44,589 nucleotides of DNA from positions 1-44,589 of the forward strand of contig SVQY01000017.1 of the NCBI GenBank assembly GCA_015065135.1, in the 5' to 3' direction. Below, piece after piece: positions 35,686 to 42,651 of the stretch. The stretch is from Oscillospiraceae bacterium. GTDB taxonomy: Bacteria; Bacillota; Clostridia; Oscillospirales; CAG-272. The position numbers and the translations under genes are program-made. Under the pieces are notes generated by a model that saw only the letters and a program-made list of their open reading frames with translations, searched no databases and was not told where the DNA came from. Positions within the stretch are counted from its first letter, which is position 1, and every line of letters begins with the position of its first letter.

Positions 35686-36758
35686 TGACACGCCTGGAGC
35701 GGTTTCAGAAGGAGCTGACGGCACGCACCGATGCGGCGCTGATCACCTCACCGCAAAACCAGTTTTATCTGTCGGGGCTGCATTATGATGACGGCTACCT
35801 GCTGATCCTTGCGGATGCCGCTTATCTGTTGGCGGATTTTCGCTATATCGAGGTGGCGAGAAGGGAGGCGGATCCCGCCTTTACCGTTGTCCTGGTGGAA
35901 AAGGGTATGAACAAGACCGTGGCGGAGCTGATCGGCAAGCACAAGGCGGAGAGCCTGCTTGTAGAGGAGGCACATATGACCCTGGCGGCAGAGGCGCGTT
36001 TGTCTGCCGCTGTTCCGCGGATTTCGGTTGTACGAGGTGCCACAGAGATCCTTACCGAAATGCGCGTGCTGAAGGATGCGCGAGAGCTATCCGCCATCGC
36101 TGCCGCGCAGGAGCTGACCGATGCGGCGTTTTCTCATATTCTGGAGTATATCCGCCCCGATCTGCGCGAGATCGACGTGGCGCTGGAGCTGGAGTTCTTT
36201 ATGCGCAAAAACGGCGCGGAGGGACTTGCCTTTGATACCATTGCCGTCTCCGGCAGCGCCTCCTCCATGCCTCACGGCGTGCCCCGTGACAGAAAATTGG
36301 AAAAGGGCTTTCTGACCATGGATTTCGGCGCACGTCTCGGGGGATATTGCTCGGATATGACCCGTACGGTGGTGATCGGCAAGGCGGACGATGAGATGAA
36401 GCGCTTGTATGAGACGGTGCTGACCGCCCAGAAAAGCGCTCTTGCCGCCGCCCGTGGCGGTGTGGGCTGCAAGGCCTTGGATGCGGTGGCGCGGGATATC
36501 ATTCACGGCGCAGGCTACGTGGGCTGCTTCGGTCACTCGCTGGGTCACGGTGTCGGCATTGATATTCACGAGGCACCCCGCCTGTCCTCCGCTGCACCGC
36601 AGGCAGACCTGCTCCGTCCGGGGCATGTGGTCACGGTGGAGCCGGGTATATATTTGGAAGGGAAATACGGTTGCCGTATTGAGGATATGATCGCTGTGCT
36701 GCCCGACGGCAGCATCCGCAATTTCACCCAAAGCCCGAAGGAGCTGATCGAGCTGTAA
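35682..36758 (+). CDS. M24-family Xaa-Pro peptidase (PepP/PepQ-like)
   Basis: The 358-residue protein has a non-catalytic N-terminal domain and a pita-bread C-domain. Metal ligands are in MDFGARLGGYCSDMTRTVV (two Asp), GHSLGHGVGIDIHEAPR (His), VTVEPGIYLEG (Glu) and CRIEDM (Glu). This is the pattern of Xaa-Pro aminopeptidase/dipeptidase, which removes N-terminal residues before proline. The start at 35682 (ATGATG; I keep the first) overlaps the hemW stop by four bases with GGAGGAG upstream. In many Bacillota a similar gene precedes efp, but here it lies in the lepA operon. Confidence 0.9.
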   Translation: MMTRLERFQKELTARTDAALITSPQNQFYLSGLHYDDGYLLILADAAYLLADFRYIEVARREADPAFTVVLVEKGMNKTVAELIGKHKAESLLVEEAHMTLAAEARLSAAVPRISVVRGATEILTEMRVLKDARELSAIAAAQELTDAAFSHILEYIRPDLREIDVALELEFFMRKNGAEGLAFDTIAVSGSASSMPHGVPRDRKLEKGFLTMDFGARLGGYCSDMTRTVVIGKADDEMKRLYETVLTAQKSALAAARGGVGCKALDAVARDIIHGAGYVGCFGHSLGHGVGIDIHEAPRLSSAAPQADLLRPGHVVTVEPGIYLEGKYGCRIEDMIAVLPDGSIRNFTQSPKELIEL

Positions 36759-37258
36759 TGGATATTCTGGTTCTTTCCGACACGCATGGCCGTGCCGACC
36801 GCGTGATAGAGGTCATGCGCCGCACGCGCGCTGCCACGGTTTTGTTTTTAGGAGACGGTCTGCGAGATATGAATGTGCTGCACGAGGGCGTTTTGCTGCG
36901 TGCGGTGCGGGGAAATTGTGACTTTTTTGGTGCGGATATCCCGGAGACCCGTGTGGAAAATTTCGGTACGTATCGCGTTTTTATGACACACGGGCATCGG
37001 TACGGCGTGAAATACGGCGAGGAGGCCGCTATCATTGCCGCCGCTGCTGCGGATGCGGACGTTCTGCTTTACGGTCATACGCACCGCCCCGTGCTTCGCT
37101 ATCTTTTAGCAGGGGAGCAGGTCGGTGATACGGTATTGAAGAAGCCGTTGACGGTTTTTTGCCCCGGCAGTCTGGGCGAGCCACACGGAGGCAAGCCGAC
37201 CTTTGGTACGCTTACTGTATGTAATAGCGGTGTGCTGGCATCGCACGGCGAGCTTTAA
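36758..37258 (+). CDS. YfcE/MJ0936-type metallophosphoesterase
   Basis: The 166-residue protein has the calcineurin-like motifs DILVLSDTHG (D-x-H), FLGDGLRDM (GD), RGNCD (GNxD), MTHGHRYG (GH) and LLYGHTHRP (GHxH). It is a small cytoplasmic phosphodiesterase. Its start overlaps the peptidase stop by one base (TAATG). It is the last gene of the lepA operon. Its natural terminator is split by the insertion at 37284, so transcription may now run into the mobile unit. Confidence 0.9.
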   Translation: MDILVLSDTHGRADRVIEVMRRTRAATVLFLGDGLRDMNVLHEGVLLRAVRGNCDFFGADIPETRVENFGTYRVFMTHGHRYGVKYGEEAAIIAAAAADADVLLYGHTHRPVLRYLLAGEQVGDTVLKKPLTVFCPGSLGEPHGGKPTFGTLTVCNSGVLASHGEL

Positions 37259-37275
37259 AATAAAAAATGCTCCGC

Positions 37276-37283
37276 GCCTGGCG
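37276..37283. repeat. Left 8-bp target-site duplication GCCTGGCG
   Basis: It is identical to 40767-40774 at the other end of the unit. 8-bp duplications are characteristic of ISL3-family transposition. Confidence 0.8.
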
Positions 37284-37305
37284 GGCTCTTTCAAATTTGC
37301 TGGAG
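37284..37305 (+). repeat. Left terminal inverted repeat of the transposon-like unit
   Basis: GGCTCTTTCAAATTTG + CT + GGAG matches the inverse of 40745-40766 at 20 of 22 positions, with an exact 16-bp outer part. Confidence 0.85.
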
Positions 37306-37337
37306 TTGATCCAAACTGAAAAAACTTTTTATAATCC

Positions 37338-37374
37338 AAAATGCACTGAGCCTATGTGGTTTGGTGCATTTTTT
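37338..37374 (+). terminator. Hairpin terminator in the left end of the unit
   Basis: AAAATGCAC pairs with GTGCATTTT, followed by a T run on both sides. It may protect the unit from readthrough from the yfcE-like gene. Confidence 0.65.
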
Positions 37375-37419
37375 GATAATATGCGGTCGCCTTTAATACC
37401 AAACCTCCTACAAGTGTTT

Positions 37420-37515
37420 TTATAGATATAGTTCTTTCTTTTTGAAAAAGTTGTTGCGACTATCTGTTTGAGGACAGATATTTCCGTGCCAAAGTTCGTT
37501 GATGATCGACTTCAT
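37420..37515 (-). pseudogene. Truncated DUF6809-like gene (remnant)
   Basis: The frame begins ATG at 37515, overlapping the TnpV stop as ATGA, and reads MKSIINELWHGNICPQ.. before it diverges after about 22 residues and stops at 37420. The motif INELWHGNICP with a start just after tnpV matches, from memory, the start of DUF6809-type proteins often found behind tnpV in clostridial mobile elements, which are normally about 100 residues. The rest is missing. Confidence 0.6.
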
Positions 37516-37709
37516 ACCAACACCATCTCCCTCAAAATGCCTTCTTCCGCGCTTGCCTTGATGTTGTTCATCTCAGCAACCCAACGGAGCATATCGCGAG
37601 CTTTCAAGTCCTCATCAATACCTCTTTCGACAACAAGGCGGGAAATGATGGTTTCAAGCATTTCATTTGCTTCAAGGTCAATTTCTTGCAAACGAGCGTA
37701 GGTTTCCCT
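37512..37709 (-). pseudogene. TnpV 3' remnant
   Basis: The frame encodes about 63 residues with the TnpV C-terminal pattern: LQEIDLEANEMLE, VVERGIDEDLKARD, WVAEMNNIKASAEE, ending REMVLV. Intact TnpV proteins (about 110-130 residues) are found in Clostridia transposons of the Tn4451 type. The 5' half is missing and the break lies at about 37709, where the AraC gene's frame crosses; the last ten or so residues of the AraC protein are coded by this debris. This shows that AraC-GH31 DNA was joined to an older mobile element by rearrangement. Confidence 0.7.
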
Positions 37710-38493
37710 TGGCGTTCTTTTTATTTTTTTCCCTCTCCCGATACTCGGTGGGGGTCGTGCCCGTGATCTCTTTGAAGTTTCGGTTGAAGGAGCAGAGGGA
37801 ATCGTAGCCGCATTCCACGGCAACCGAGGAGATCGTTCCTTCTCCGGTCAATAGCAAATTTCGGGCGTGGGAGATCCGATATTCGTTGAGCAGTGTCCGA
37901 AAGGTGGTGCGCAGACTCTTTTGCAGCAGGTTGGATAAATAATGATAATCGTAGCCGATCTCCTTCGCCGCATCCTGCATGGTGATCGGCTCGGCATAAT
38001 GCTTAGCGATAAAGGTCAAAATTTTTCCCACGTGCTCGATAGGCTTGTTTTTTCGCGGGATATAGCCTTCGTGCGTTCGCTCAAACAGATCGATCATTTC
38101 ATACAGACAGGATTTCAGCAGATACCGAGAACCGTCCGCACGTTCCAATCGATCGATCAGCGAAGGATTTGGAACATCAAACACGGGATTTTGAGCCGTT
38201 GTCACCTTTGCCGTACGGGAAAACTCTCCTACCAAACTGTTTTGAAAGATACACAGATAGGTTTTGGTTTTTGTTAAGCTACGCGCGCTGTGGATCTGAT
38301 TGGGAAAGATCAGAATCCCTTGTCCCTCGCCTACCGCAAACGTTTTATCATCCACTGTGATTTCCATTGTTCCTTCGTATACGTAAATCCACTCAAAGCT
38401 GTCGTGCAAATGCCGGGATACGCCCAAATTTCGATTTCGCTGATGATAAATTCCGTTGACGGGATTGGCGCGTTCGTTTTCATAATATATCAT
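37678..38493 (-). CDS. AraC-family transcriptional regulator (cargo of the mobile unit)
   Basis: The 271-residue protein has an N-terminal cupin sensor (HLHDSFEWIYVYEGTMEITVDDKTFAVGEGQGILIFPNQIH) and a C-terminal double helix-turn-helix (ITMQDAAKEIGYDYHYLSNLLQKSLRTTFRTLLNEYRISHARNLL; then TISSVAVECGYDSLCSFNRNFKEITGTTPTEYR). The end (about ten residues after EREKNKKNAKG) is coded by a TnpV remnant, so the original C-terminus was probably slightly different, outside the DNA-binding domain. AGAGGT precedes the ATG. It is divergent from the GH31 gene and probably controls it. Its DNA is more A+T-rich than the surrounding chromosome. Confidence 0.88.
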   Translation of the reverse strand: MIYYENERANPVNGIYHQRNRNLGVSRHLHDSFEWIYVYEGTMEITVDDKTFAVGEGQGILIFPNQIHSARSLTKTKTYLCIFQNSLVGEFSRTAKVTTAQNPVFDVPNPSLIDRLERADGSRYLLKSCLYEMIDLFERTHEGYIPRKNKPIEHVGKILTFIAKHYAEPITMQDAAKEIGYDYHYLSNLLQKSLRTTFRTLLNEYRISHARNLLLTGEGTISSVAVECGYDSLCSFNRNFKEITGTTPTEYREREKNKKNAKGNLRSFARN

Positions 38494-38543
38494 AGATAAC
38501 CTCTAAAATCTTAATCTATGATTATACTATATCACTGTATGAA

Positions 38544-38572
38544 TTGAAATGTCAAGCAAAACATGATACAAT
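38544..38572 (+). promoter_or_regulatory. Promoter of the GH31 gene
   Basis: TTGAAA, 17-bp spacer, TACAAT, 43 bases before the start codon. Confidence 0.75.
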
Positions 38573-38577
38573 AAAAA

Positions 38578-38591
38578 TGAGAATATTCTCA
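38578..38591. promoter_or_regulatory. Perfect palindrome TGAGAATATTCTCA at the GH31 start site
   Basis: This 14-bp palindrome overlaps the expected transcription start. Its symmetry suggests a dimeric repressor rather than the AraC protein. Confidence 0.55.
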
Positions 38592-38615
38592 ATGGGATGG
38601 CGAGGAGGATAAAAG

Positions 38616-40565
38616 ATGATGTATTTTTCCGTGGAAAATGGAAGGTTGACCGTCCGTGAGGCGGGCGAGATCATTCAGATCGAGGCGTGGGGCACCGACG
38701 CTTTGCGTGTTCGCGCTACGAAAAATTATGCGCTCTCGGGGAGAGATCAGGGGATTTTGCCCGTTGATTCCAAAGGAGAAGCTGTGGTGGAGGAAAAGAA
38801 AGCGACCTACACCAACGGACGCTTGTCCGTTTGCGTGGAAGGTCAGATGCACCTGACCTTCTATCGGGACGGAGAGAAGATTTTGAGAGAATACGCGAAT
38901 CCCTACGCTCCTGCCATTCGCATTGCGGCGAGAGACTATAAGCCCGTAGGAGGCAGTGACTACGCCATTAAGGCTCGTTTTGAGAGCAACGCGGGCGAAA
39001 AGCTCTACGGTATGGGACAGTATCAGCAGCCCGAGCTGGAATTGAAGGGAAACGTAATGGAGCTGGCACCCAAGAACGCGCAGATCAGCATTCCGTTCTA
39101 TATTTCCAATCTCGGCTACGGATTCCTGTGGAATAACCCCGCCATCGGTGAGGTGTCCTTTGGTAAGAATATGACCGAATGGACGGCAAACCGCTCCGAG
39201 GAGATCGACTATTGGATCACCGTGGGAGACACACCCAAGGATCTGTTGAAGAATTATACCGAGGTGACGGGACGCGCGCCCGAGTTCCCCGAGAACTTGA
39301 TGGGACTTTGGCAGTGCAAGCTGCGCTACCGTACCCAAGACGAGGTTTTGGAGGTGGCAAGAGAGTACCACCGCCGCGGACTGCCTTTAGACTGTATCGT
39401 CATCGACTACTATCACTGGTGTCACGACGGAGATTGGTGCTTTGACCCCGAGTTTTGGCCCGATCCTACCGCCATGGTCAAGGAACTCAAGTCCATGGGA
39501 ACACGTTGCATGGTTTCGGTTTGGCCTACGGTGGAGGATAGAAGTGTCAATTATAAGGAAATCCATAACAAGGGACTGTTGACCTACGCCATGCGCGGAG
39601 AACCGGGCGGAATCTTTGGCAAGGCGTTTTACGACGCGACCAACTCCGAGGCGCGCAAGCTGATCTGGACGAAGGTCAAGGAAAACTATTACGATCACGG
39701 CGTGGATATGTATTGGTTGGATTGCTCCGAGCCCGAGTATCTTCCCGCTGATTTTGACCACTACCGTTATTCGGTAGGACCTGCCGAAAAGACCGCGGGA
39801 TTGTATCCGTTGTCCCACGTTCGCGCGTTTTACGAGGGACAAATGGCAGTCGGTCAGCCAGATATCGCCAACCTTTCACGATGCGCGTGGGTTGGTGCGC
39901 AGAGATACGCCGCCGTGCTTTGGTCGGGCGACATTAAATCCACTTTTGAAACACTTCGCGCACAGGTCTGCGCAGGCTTGAATATCGGTATGGCGGGCAT
40001 CCCTTGGTGGACCACCGACACGGCAGGCTTTATTGGCAACGTGGAGGATCCTACGTACAACGAATTGCTTGTCCGTTGGTTCCAGTTCTCCACCTTCTCG
40101 CCTGTGCTTCGTTTGCACGGATACCTCGGTCCTTACGGCAAGTTCCCCCGTCTCTCCAACAAGCGCCATAGTGGCGGATTCGCGAATACCGCTCAGCCTC
40201 ACGAGCTGTGGAGTCACGGCGAGGAGGTCTACGAGATCCTTAAAAAGTATCTGTTTATTCGTGTTGATCTGAAGGATTACATCAAGAAATTGATGGAGGA
40301 GGCAAGCGAGAACGGTTCTCCCTTGCTCCGTACCATGTTCTACGAGTTCCCGAATGACGCTAAGTGTTGGGATCTGCAGGATCAGTATATGTTCGGTGAT
40401 CGCTATCTGGTGGCTCCCGTCATGTACGAGGGGATGAGAGAGCGTGAGGTATATCTGCCCGAAGGAAGCTGGAAGGATATCCATACGGATGAGATCGTTG
40501 CGGGAGGACAGACGATCCTCGCCGCTGCCCCCTTGGAGATCATTCCTGTTTACGAAAAGCTATGA
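38616..40565 (+). CDS. GH31 alpha-glycosidase (alpha-xylosidase-like)
   Basis: The 649-residue protein has no signal peptide. It has the family's N-terminal beta-sandwich and a TIM barrel with the nucleophile region MYWLDCSEPEYLP (Asp at about residue 369; the WLDxSEPE form is seen in alpha-xylosidases and related enzymes) and the acid/base region LWSGDIKSTFETLRAQVCAGLN (Asp at about residue 439). It probably removes alpha-xylose or alpha-glucose from oligosaccharides such as xyloglucan fragments. AGGAGG lies 7 bases before ATG 38616. GGA glycine codons are frequent here but rare in neighbours. It is the cargo of the mobile unit together with the AraC gene. Confidence 0.87.
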   Translation: MMYFSVENGRLTVREAGEIIQIEAWGTDALRVRATKNYALSGRDQGILPVDSKGEAVVEEKKATYTNGRLSVCVEGQMHLTFYRDGEKILREYANPYAPAIRIAARDYKPVGGSDYAIKARFESNAGEKLYGMGQYQQPELELKGNVMELAPKNAQISIPFYISNLGYGFLWNNPAIGEVSFGKNMTEWTANRSEEIDYWITVGDTPKDLLKNYTEVTGRAPEFPENLMGLWQCKLRYRTQDEVLEVAREYHRRGLPLDCIVIDYYHWCHDGDWCFDPEFWPDPTAMVKELKSMGTRCMVSVWPTVEDRSVNYKEIHNKGLLTYAMRGEPGGIFGKAFYDATNSEARKLIWTKVKENYYDHGVDMYWLDCSEPEYLPADFDHYRYSVGPAEKTAGLYPLSHVRAFYEGQMAVGQPDIANLSRCAWVGAQRYAAVLWSGDIKSTFETLRAQVCAGLNIGMAGIPWWTTDTAGFIGNVEDPTYNELLVRWFQFSTFSPVLRLHGYLGPYGKFPRLSNKRHSGGFANTAQPHELWSHGEEVYEILKKYLFIRVDLKDYIKKLMEEASENGSPLLRTMFYEFPNDAKCWDLQDQYMFGDRYLVAPVMYEGMREREVYLPEGSWKDIHTDEIVAGGQTILAAAPLEIIPVYEKL

Positions 40566-40675
40566 CTGTTCGTAAACTTAACCGGTAGTTGCATTTGATC
40601 ATAGGAGGCTATAGTACTCTCTATAATTTATATACTATTTTTGCGTGCTTGTCATCTCCGGAATTTTTCCATAGG

Positions 40676-40712
40676 AAAAGGTGCCATCTTATCTCAGATG
40701 GCACCTTTTTTT
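40676..40712. terminator. Intrinsic terminator after the GH31 gene
   Basis: AAAAGGTGCCATCT / AGATGGCACCTTTT, loop TATCTC, within the mobile unit. Confidence 0.92.
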
Positions 40713-40744
40713 ACTTTGTGTTAACTTGTTGTTTTAGGGCTTAG

Positions 40745-40766
40745 CTCCTTCAAATTTGAAAGAGCC
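40745..40766 (-). repeat. Right terminal inverted repeat of the transposon-like unit
   Basis: Read on the minus strand: GGCTCTTTCAAATTTG + AA + GGAG. Mate of 37284-37305. Confidence 0.85.
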
Positions 40767-40774
40767 GCCTGGCG
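40767..40774. repeat. Right 8-bp target-site duplication GCCTGGCG
   Basis: Exact copy of 37276-37283. It is followed by CGGAGC and seven T, the remaining half of the split terminator. Confidence 0.8.
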
Positions 40775-40792
40775 CGGAGCTTTTTTTGCTTT

Positions 40793-41092
40793 TTACAGTA
40801 CGGCTGCTTCTTCTTCGGCAACTTCCTCTGCGGCGGTGGCAAGCGCCTCCTCATAGGCGCGGATCACGGCTTCCTCCAGAGAGGCACGGAACTGGGCGTT
40901 GATGGGATGCACGATATCCCGATAGGTCTCATCCGGGTTTTTGCGGCTGGGCATAACGATGAAAAAGCGGTCACGTGCGTGGATCACCTTAATGTCGTGG
41001 ACGGCCAGCTGACTGTCAAAGGTGACGGAAACGACAGCCTTCATAGGGCCTTCATCAAACAATTTGCGAATTTTGATGTCTGTGATTTGCAT
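40793..41092 (-). CDS. spoVG: SpoVG-family regulator
   Basis: The 99-residue protein is SpoVG: MQITDIKIRKLFDEGPMKAVVSVTFDSQLAVHDIKVI, then FFIVMPSRKNPDETYRDIVHPINAQFRASLEEAVIRAYEEAL. It is a small nucleic-acid-binding regulator of cell division, sporulation and surface genes in Bacillota. ATG 41092 follows GGAGG by 9 bases; the longer ORF to 41221 would add an unrelated leader. An Ala/Glu-rich tail (ATAAEEVAEEEAAVL) extends beyond the usual core. Its natural terminator at the left is split by the transposon-like unit. Confidence 0.93.
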   Translation of the reverse strand: MQITDIKIRKLFDEGPMKAVVSVTFDSQLAVHDIKVIHARDRFFIVMPSRKNPDETYRDIVHPINAQFRASLEEAVIRAYEEALATAAEEVAEEEAAVL

Positions 41093-41259
41093 TTTCTTTT
41101 GCCTCCGTTGATATAATTTGATACACGGTTTGTTTTTACAGTTATAGTATAATTCTCCTTTGTGGCGGCTATTCAAACGCTTTGTGAGTTTTGTGTGAAA
41201 TTGTAACAGAAAAACAGACACGTTACGCCAAAATTGTTGATAATGTGGGGGGATTTGCT

Positions 41260-42651
41260 ATGTCTTTGCCAAATACCGAGGAGGGGGCATCCGGGATCGC
41301 GCGGCTGCTTTCAGGGAGAAAAAAGCTTTGGTTTATCGGGATCGGCGGTGTGCATATGGCAACGATGGCACGTTATGCAGCAGAAAAGGGATTTGTTGTG
41401 GCAGGCTCGGATCGTGTCGAGAGCGCACGTACCGCACGGCTGCAGGCGGTGGGGATCCCGGTATATTTCGGGCACGATGCCGCTCGCGTGGTGGGCTATG
41501 ATGCGGTGATCTATACATTGGCGCTTTCTAAGGATAATCCGGAATATAATGCTGCGCGACATTTGGGAGTGCCTCTTTTTTCCAGAGCGGATTTTCTTTC
41601 CTTTTTGATGCAAGATCACGCAAATCGCATTGGTATTGCCGGCAGTCACGGCAAAAGCACCGTGACCGCGATGCTGGCGCATATCCTGACGGCGGCGGGG
41701 CGTGCGCCTGCGGTATTCTGCGGCGCGCCGTTGCGCGGCGTGAGCGAGGAGCCTCGCGTGCAGGCGCGGGATGCGGTCTTTGAGGCGTGTGAGTACGGTG
41801 ACTCCTTTTTGCGTTTTTCTCCTACATTGGCGGTGCTGCTGAACGCGGATCACGATCATGTGGATTATTTTCCGACGCGTGAGACGCTGAAGCGATCCTT
41901 TTGTGCCTATGCCGCTTTGCCCGGGAAGACGGGAGTGGTGTTATGTAATGCCGAGGATATGCTGGCACTCTCGTGCGCACAGACAAGCGAGGCAAGACTG
42001 GTGACCTTTGGTGTGGATGACGGTGATTTTCGTGCACGTGTGCGGAATTTTAATGCCGGATGCGGTGTTTTCTCGCCCGTCCTTCCGCAGGGGAGGGAGC
42101 TGCCGGAGATCCGCTTGCGCGTACCCGGATGCCATAATATCAGTAATGCGGTGGCCGCGATAGCGGCGGCCGATCTGCTGGGTGTGGCGGGGGAAACGAT
42201 CTGTGCCGCGTTGTCTGCTTTTCCCGGTGTGGGCCGCAGGATGGAGTATCGCGGCACCTCGGGCGGTGCTCGTCTGTATGACGATTACGCGCACCATCCG
42301 CAAGAGATCGTGGCAACGCTGACGGCAGCACGGGAAATGGCGGGCAAGGGGCGACTGCTGGCTGTTTTTCAATCACATACTTATACGCGAACCAAAGCCT
42401 TTTTGGCGGAGATCTGTGCCGCGCTGCGTCTGGCCGATCGCGTGCTGATCGCACCGATCTACCCTGCGCGCGAGACGGATACACTTGGTATGAGTGCTGA
42501 TGTACTGGCGGTCGGTGTGGGGGAACGCGCCACGGCATGCCAAACACTTTCCGAGGTCGCTGCCGCGCTGACGGCAGAGCTGATGGCAGGGGATCTGGCG
42601 GTGGTAATGGGGGCTGGGGACGTGGATCGCATTTTCAGGGAAATTTTCTGA
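41260..42651 (+). CDS. murC: UDP-N-acetylmuramate--L-alanine ligase
   Basis: The 463-residue protein is a Mur ligase. It has the N-terminal Rossmann segment FIGIGGVHMATMARYAAEKG, the ATP loop GIAGSHGKSTVTAMLA, NADHDHVDYFP and the C-terminal DDYAHHPQEIVATLTAARE, diagnostic for MurC. It adds L-alanine to UDP-MurNAc in peptidoglycan synthesis. The usual GIGGxGMS here reads GIGGVHMATM and GTHGKT reads GSHGKS, small changes that leave the core intact. ATG 41260 has GGGGGGA upstream; the 23-residue extension to 41191 lies in the divergent spoVG region. The murC gene stands outside the mur/fts cluster. Confidence 0.92.
   Translation: MSLPNTEEGASGIARLLSGRKKLWFIGIGGVHMATMARYAAEKGFVVAGSDRVESARTARLQAVGIPVYFGHDAARVVGYDAVIYTLALSKDNPEYNAARHLGVPLFSRADFLSFLMQDHANRIGIAGSHGKSTVTAMLAHILTAAGRAPAVFCGAPLRGVSEEPRVQARDAVFEACEYGDSFLRFSPTLAVLLNADHDHVDYFPTRETLKRSFCAYAALPGKTGVVLCNAEDMLALSCAQTSEARLVTFGVDDGDFRARVRNFNAGCGVFSPVLPQGRELPEIRLRVPGCHNISNAVAAIAAADLLGVAGETICAALSAFPGVGRRMEYRGTSGGARLYDDYAHHPQEIVATLTAAREMAGKGRLLAVFQSHTYTRTKAFLAEICAALRLADRVLIAPIYPARETDTLGMSADVLAVGVGERATACQTLSEVAAALTAELMAGDLAVVMGAGDVDRIFREIF

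Follow-up and report, generated by a model that had tools for sequence, protein, structure and literature searches.

The stretch of DNA analysed here, hereafter the window, comprises 44,589 nucleotides of contig SVQY01000017.1 (assembly GCA_015065135.1) from an Oscillospiraceae bacterium (GTDB lineage Bacteria; Bacillota; Clostridia; Oscillospirales; CAG-272). Within it, a yfcE-like metallophosphoesterase gene and spoVG converge on one another, and between them lies a 3,483-base segment (37284-40766) whose two termini are inverted copies of each other. The segment carries an AraC-type regulator gene and, divergent from it, the gene of a GH31 glycosidase, the latter open throughout its 649 codons with no internal stop; Pfam domains identify both, in agreement with an original prediction, made from the letters alone, that had proposed an ISL3-like transposon unit at this place. 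In Pfam searches of the GH31, AraC and TnpV-bearing open reading frames (ORFs), though not of every short ORF, no intact transposase was found inside the segment. The prediction that no transposase is present stands to that extent, but it had overlooked a truncated remnant of TnpV. Below we set out the evidence that the segment arrived by a past transposition-type insertion, and consider which type of transposase most likely mobilised it.

The boundaries of the segment are sharply defined. Its inverted ends are exact over 16 bases and identical at 20 of 22 and 24 of 29 positions, the exact sequence common to both being GGCTCTTTCAAATTTG; the imperfect 22-bp ends with a shared exact core that had been predicted are confirmed, and the similarity in fact extends to about 29 bp. 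Abutting the segment on both sides is an exact 8-bp direct repeat, GCCTGGCG, as had also been noted. When the whole window was scanned for inverted pairs of exact 10- to 16-mers lying 200 bases to 20 kb apart, only the segment ends had an exact 8-bp direct repeat on their outer sides (1 of 1580 10-mer pairs; 1 of 1 16-mer pairs). In 60 Markov-random sequences, inverted 16-mer pairs arose at a mean of 0.2, and no inverted 10-, 12- or 16-mer pair had an abutting 8-bp repeat. The GC content of the element is 0.488 vs 0.553 for the remaining window, and the 237 bp at its left end are A+T-rich, with a GC content of 0.36.

The site of insertion can be reconstructed. Excising the segment together with one repeat copy restores GCTCCGCGC-CTG-GCGCGGAGC followed by seven T, a hairpin that sits between the convergent yfcE-like gene and spoVG; the joined flanks (109 bases) fold in the manner originally proposed, at -37.6 kcal/mol overall and with the 9-bp hairpin contained. 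As now present, the split halves fold poorly on the plus strand (z about -0.3 at both junctions), with z values of -1.8 and -2.2 at the two junctions on the minus strand. The corresponding region was also compared across the genus, where the query stretch found some DNA match in 21 of 21 genomes (source genome included) and 16 stretches were fetched from 12 of the 20 congeners; nine of these contain both genes, and in L038 and L039 only spoVG was found. In six of the nine (L006 and L026-L030), yfcE and spoVG face each other at short distance across strong hairpins, and neither an AraC nor a GH31 gene lies between them, while in the remaining three the two genes are spaced 4.6 kb (L025), 2.3 kb (L035) and 9.0 kb (L036) apart. 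For other congeners, the query matches are spread over separate contigs or separated by kilobases, or they do not cover the yfcE part. Because the letters of the hairpin are not conserved, it is on position and structure that the empty site is recognised in 6 of the 20 congeners. Taken together, the terminal repeats, the duplicated target, the hairpin rebuilt on excision and the six insert-free congener stretches lead us to regard the insertion as real, and a past transposition-type insertion as well supported. Coordinates of the element and its surroundings are collected in the table.

Table. Features of the segment and its flanks, in window coordinates
Feature	Coordinates	Strand	Remarks
yfcE-like metallophosphoesterase gene	36758..37258	+	flanking, outside element
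Left part of split intergenic terminator	37269..37283	+	includes left repeat copy
Left copy of 8-bp target duplication GCCTGGCG	37276..37283		loop and inner stem of terminator hairpin
Left terminal inverted repeat	37284..37312	+	16 bases exact, then imperfect to ~29 bp
Strong hairpin then T on + strand, near left end	37338..37372		61-base folding z -5.1 (+), -3.4 (-)
Truncated TnpV remnant	37521..37700	-	PF14198 positions 52-111 of 111, ~60 residues
AraC-type regulator gene	37678..38493	-	AraC_binding/cupin and HTH_18, 271 aa; last residues enter TnpV remnant
Divergent regulator/enzyme intergenic region	38494..38615		overlapping promoter-like sites on both strands (consensus matches only)
GH31 glycosidase gene	38616..40565	+	649 aa, open throughout
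Strong hairpin with T run on + strand	40672..40713		probable GH31 terminator; folding z -8.3 (+), -6.7 (-)
Right terminal inverted repeat	40738..40766	-	outer 22 bases a near palindrome around CAAATTTG
Right copy of 8-bp target duplication GCCTGGCG	40767..40774		
Right part of split terminator	40767..40787	+	with T7 run
spoVG	40793..41092	-	flanking, outside element; PF04026 match from residue 44 of 142-aa ORF

Two of the congener stretches have intergenic contents of their own. At L025 (3500-8880, G154:C8), the gap of about 4.6 kb holds an apparent two-component response regulator and sensor along with ABC transporter genes, and on this example the space between yfcE and spoVG may be one where inserts are tolerated. 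At L028 (about 1907-2270, G161:C14), the gap includes a palindrome-rich stretch resembling a miniature inverted-repeat transposable element, with a CTCCCTTGTG-type inverted repeat at its start and end; among the 184 fetched loci GGCTCCCTTGTG occurs only in L028 and L008, which represent the same place, and it is absent from the window.

The remnant of TnpV, a protein of another kind of transposon (Tn4451), is the sole PF14198 match in the source genome and lies directly 3' of the AraC gene, whose reading frame ends inside it. It is beside this remnant that the cargo may have been joined to the end of the element. In the congener G148, downstream of a NAD synthase gene (L031 1728-1885, G148:C12), lies a TnpV-like piece with 88% identity over 158 nt; the DNA match there stops right at the NAD synthase stop, as though a short piece of the TnpV tail had moved alone. 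Near each end of the segment is a strong hairpin. A terminator consensus scan, which found 2 candidates against 4.2 expected (shuffled mean), lists the hairpin at the right end and omits that at the left; because the scan gives no support by itself, the case that these hairpins are terminators is drawn from their folding. They could take over the role of the split terminator. An Rfam search over 36000-42000 returned no match.

As for the cargo, the regulator has a cupin-like sensing domain. The best solved relative of the GH31 enzyme is the alpha-xylosidase MeXyl31 (5zn6, E 6e-209), with which its WLD and WSGD stretches, the catalytic ones, align. The NCBIfam alpha-xylosidase and alpha-glucosidase models match the protein below their curated cut-offs, and its substrate can therefore be put forward only as a prediction. 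Its location and the inducer of the regulator are likewise matters of prediction. Of 246 family genomes, 22, the source genome among them, encode relatives of the enzyme at E 1e-100 or better, and in a tree of 25 proteins its sister (100/99) is a GH31 protein of the congener G154, 59% identical to it. The G154 gene (L032) is accompanied by an AraC gene whose product is 46% identical to the segment's regulator, within a sugar-gene cluster that also contains a fucosidase, a lyxose isomerase and a second AraC. A similar pair at L126 is 48% (GH31) and 56% (AraC) identical to the cargo; the divergent order of both pairs was judged from coordinates. Four of the 24 related GH31 loci included in the comparison have an AraC relative at E 1e-10 or better. 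Genome G154 has no match to the segment ends with up to 1 mismatch, or with a longer pattern and up to 3. Compared with seven neighbouring genes, the GH31 gene has a third-position GC inside their range and the AraC gene one at its lower edge. Given that the sister GH31 gene in G154 stands with a divergent AraC gene but without the ends, and that the L126 pair is similar, the cargo appears to be a native module of the same bacterial family that transposon ends have captured.

Copies of the ends were sought well beyond the segment. In the source genome, allowing up to 2 mismatches, only the two ends themselves and the right-end palindrome read in reverse were recovered. Exact matching across 146 family genomes gave an end match in two, the source genome and G139; the G139 match lies inside an ORF among apparent phage recombination genes and was rejected as a chance occurrence. 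With up to 1 mismatch, matches appeared in 33 of 395 family genomes, the source genome holding the sole close pair and G019 two matches on different contigs, and in 34 of 394 order genomes, a sample overlapping the first, with no new pair. A longer pattern with up to 3 mismatches matched 4 of 21 genus genomes, again with no new pair. For the end matches at L060-L123, no convincing partner end and duplication were seen, mostly within about 1.5 kb on each side. Plasmids yielded nothing in one search and otherwise short, chance-like matches at E 0.8 to 9, and the one such match inspected coincided with no annotated feature. One genome showed an array-like arrangement, with three copies of GGTTCTTTCAAATTTG 56 bases apart (G737:C34 31843-31970) plus one on another contig.

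The ends nevertheless resemble those of a known family of insertion sequences (ISs). PF01610 (DDE_Tnp_ISL3), the ISL3 transposase domain, is present in 14 of the 395 family genomes. At four ISL3-transposase loci of the same family an end starts with GGCTCTTTGTCAA; L041, L042, L046 and L052 have one end reading GGCTCTTTGTCAATAGTTG, whose first 8 bases are those of the segment ends. The other end of L041 and L042 reads GG(T/C)TCTATAATAAATGTTG, and at L046 no left end was found. The ISL3 element at L047 has an exact 8-bp duplication, GTTATTAT, and ends beginning GGTTCAATGCAAAAGTTT and GCCTCAATGCAAAAGTTT. The family ISL3 elements and the segment ends have GGCTCTTT in common. The published ISL3 element ISArsp7 likewise has ends starting with GGCTCTTCGCG and an 8-bp repeat (PMC6305408). 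Because the ends and duplication of family ISL3 elements, ISArsp7 and the published ISL3 passenger elements discussed below all resemble the segment, an ISL3-type mobiliser is favoured as the most likely one, a proposal that is plausible but unproven. Having no transposase, the segment itself does not qualify as a member of ISL3: the 8-bp target duplication of that family is present and PF01610 is not. The ISL3 link originally suggested from the GG-start and the duplication is one of similarity, seen here over the first 8 end bases and in duplication length; no transposase with these ends was found in the searches described here. At L041 (about 917, G066:C136), an ISL3 element has its left end right in the T run that follows a hairpin-like stretch, a position that hints at terminator targeting.

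On this evidence we put at about 75% the probability that the segment is a non-autonomous cassette bounded by transposon ends, of the kind known as a mobile insertion cassette (MIC), and was mobilised in trans, most likely by an ISL3 transposase. Like a MIC, it has IS-type terminal inverted repeats, a target duplication with an insert-free site (insert-free by position and structure, the letters not being identical), and passenger genes without a functional transposase, within the Pfam scope given above. The transposase, of DDE type and most likely from the ISL3 family, would have been supplied from elsewhere; it would have recognised both outward-facing ends of 22-29 bp and attached them at a staggered cut within the loop of the terminator that yfcE and spoVG share, and repair of the 8-base gaps would have produced the GCCTGGCG duplication. 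The cargo so delivered would consist of an AraC-type sensor/activator and a GH31 enzyme of either alpha-xylosidase or alpha-glucosidase type, together with promoter-like sites and its own terminator, and would be related to chromosomal divergent pairs of the same bacterial family. The hairpins near both ends could replace the broken terminator, in which case neighbours and cargo would stay transcriptionally separate.

Several results weigh against this interpretation. The ends are paired in no other genome searched. Viral contigs gave no match in one search and, in another, 11 single matches to the 16-bp core that had no convincing partner; the 22-base pattern found one unrelated-looking match among genome contigs, in Rhizobium, which appears to be due to chance. 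PF01610 is absent from all six frames of the source genome, segment included, although its absence is not final because that genome is 84% complete. After their first 8 bases, the segment ends diverge from those of family ISL3 elements (GG.TCTT...), and among the ISL3 elements examined an exact duplication is seen only at L047, L041 and L042 agreeing at 6 and 5 of 8 letters, respectively. At the insertion site, most of the 20 congeners did not show yfcE and spoVG close together. The search for an empty site that the original prediction had proposed succeeded in part, with the six stretches defined by position and structure but with the identical rebuilt hairpin in 0 of 39 fetched loci. Its further suggestion, that more copies and an ISL3 transposase be sought in the source genome, turned up nothing beyond the segment's own ends, and its description of a mobile, ready-regulated unit is not borne out: the segment occurs once, and no mobiliser for it was seen. 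Within these searches the ends recur nowhere as a pair and no transposase for them was found, an outcome the prediction had itself counted as adverse; it weakens the ISL3 assignment and current mobility, while the past insertion stands.

The same insertion might have been mobilised by a different family, for IS1595, IS256 and IS6 elements also make 8-bp duplications and IS1595-type derivatives with passengers exist, so the length of the duplication is insufficient by itself to name a family. Transposases of the IS256 type (PF00872) were indeed detected in 17 of 186 family genomes, but PF12762 (IS1595) in only 1 of 186, and neither domain in the five genus members listed per search (the source genome and four congeners). 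An end search over 15 loci, limited to the two best rows per locus, recovered no GGCTCTTT-type ends at six IS256-type and two IS1595-type loci, although this negative is weak because the script, owing to its scoring, missed the L041 and L042 ends and found those of L047 out of register, and IS6 was outside the search. Such ends do occur at ISL3 loci, and the IS1595 and IS256 searches among the 186 genomes offered no better candidate than ISL3; we regard mobilisation by IS1595, IS256, IS6 or a similar family as unlikely. The segment could instead be a decayed autonomous transposon that lost its own transposase and can no longer move, its history marked by the TnpV remnant. The position of that remnant against the 3' end of the AraC gene, the single copy in the source genome and the A+T-rich left end would suit such a history, yet the source genome has no PF01610 match, TnpV belongs to a different kind of transposon, and the G148 piece, which matches over 158 nt and lacks what else makes up the left part of the element, suggests that the remnant may be independent of the ends. 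We consider this history doubtful. Finally, chance inverted repeats around an ordinary gene pair between two related terminators can be dismissed as extremely improbable: the palindromic target does make flank and end together resemble a longer inverted repeat, but exact ends with an exact 8-bp direct repeat immediately outside them never arose in the random sequences, and at the same place six congener stretches are without the segment.

A MIC-type cassette mobilised in trans would make this locus a clean, reconstructable case of a sugar-use regulator-enzyme pair riding as a transposon passenger into a harmless spot. A cognate ISL3 transposase with the same ends, if found, would show how single, self-controlled carbohydrate enzymes move between related bacteria; one copy without its mobiliser is, by itself, an ordinary though well-preserved example. 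The bolder proposition, that an ISL3-type transposase lineage of this bacterial group preferentially targets terminator hairpins and carries self-regulated, hairpin-insulated sugar modules, single enzymes thereby spreading with their own sensors as plug-in units that leave the neighbours undisturbed, strikes us as very improbable. The single-copy, MIC-like element is best described as a well-preserved example of a kind already described and not as a new kind.

That kind is the mobile insertion cassette, a term and description that we take from PMC3129680. MICs such as MIC231 of Bacillus cereus resemble the segment in having IS-type ends with a target duplication and passenger genes but no transposase. 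MIC231, which appears in reference titles in PMC2266710, is tied to a known IS (IS231, IS4 family); the segment differs in its ISL3-like ends, in its sugar regulator/enzyme cargo and in that no cognate IS with matching ends was found (in an 84% complete source genome and partial genome samples). Among the papers listed by the literature searches made, none concerned this element or ISL3 cassettes with GH31 cargo. Within ISL3, the nearest published parallels are the transporter ISs ISPst2a/b, whose passengers are an ArsR regulator and a putative permease. As described in PMC6305408, they share with the segment an 8-bp duplication, ends starting with GG and a cargo of regulator plus function gene, but ISPst2 retains its own transposase, which the segment lacks. 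The cargo has its closest counterparts in the AraC-GH31 pairs of the same bacterial family (L032 and L126), which comprise the same two gene families in divergent order; unlike the segment, the L032 pair stands in a sugar-gene cluster of a genome without these ends.

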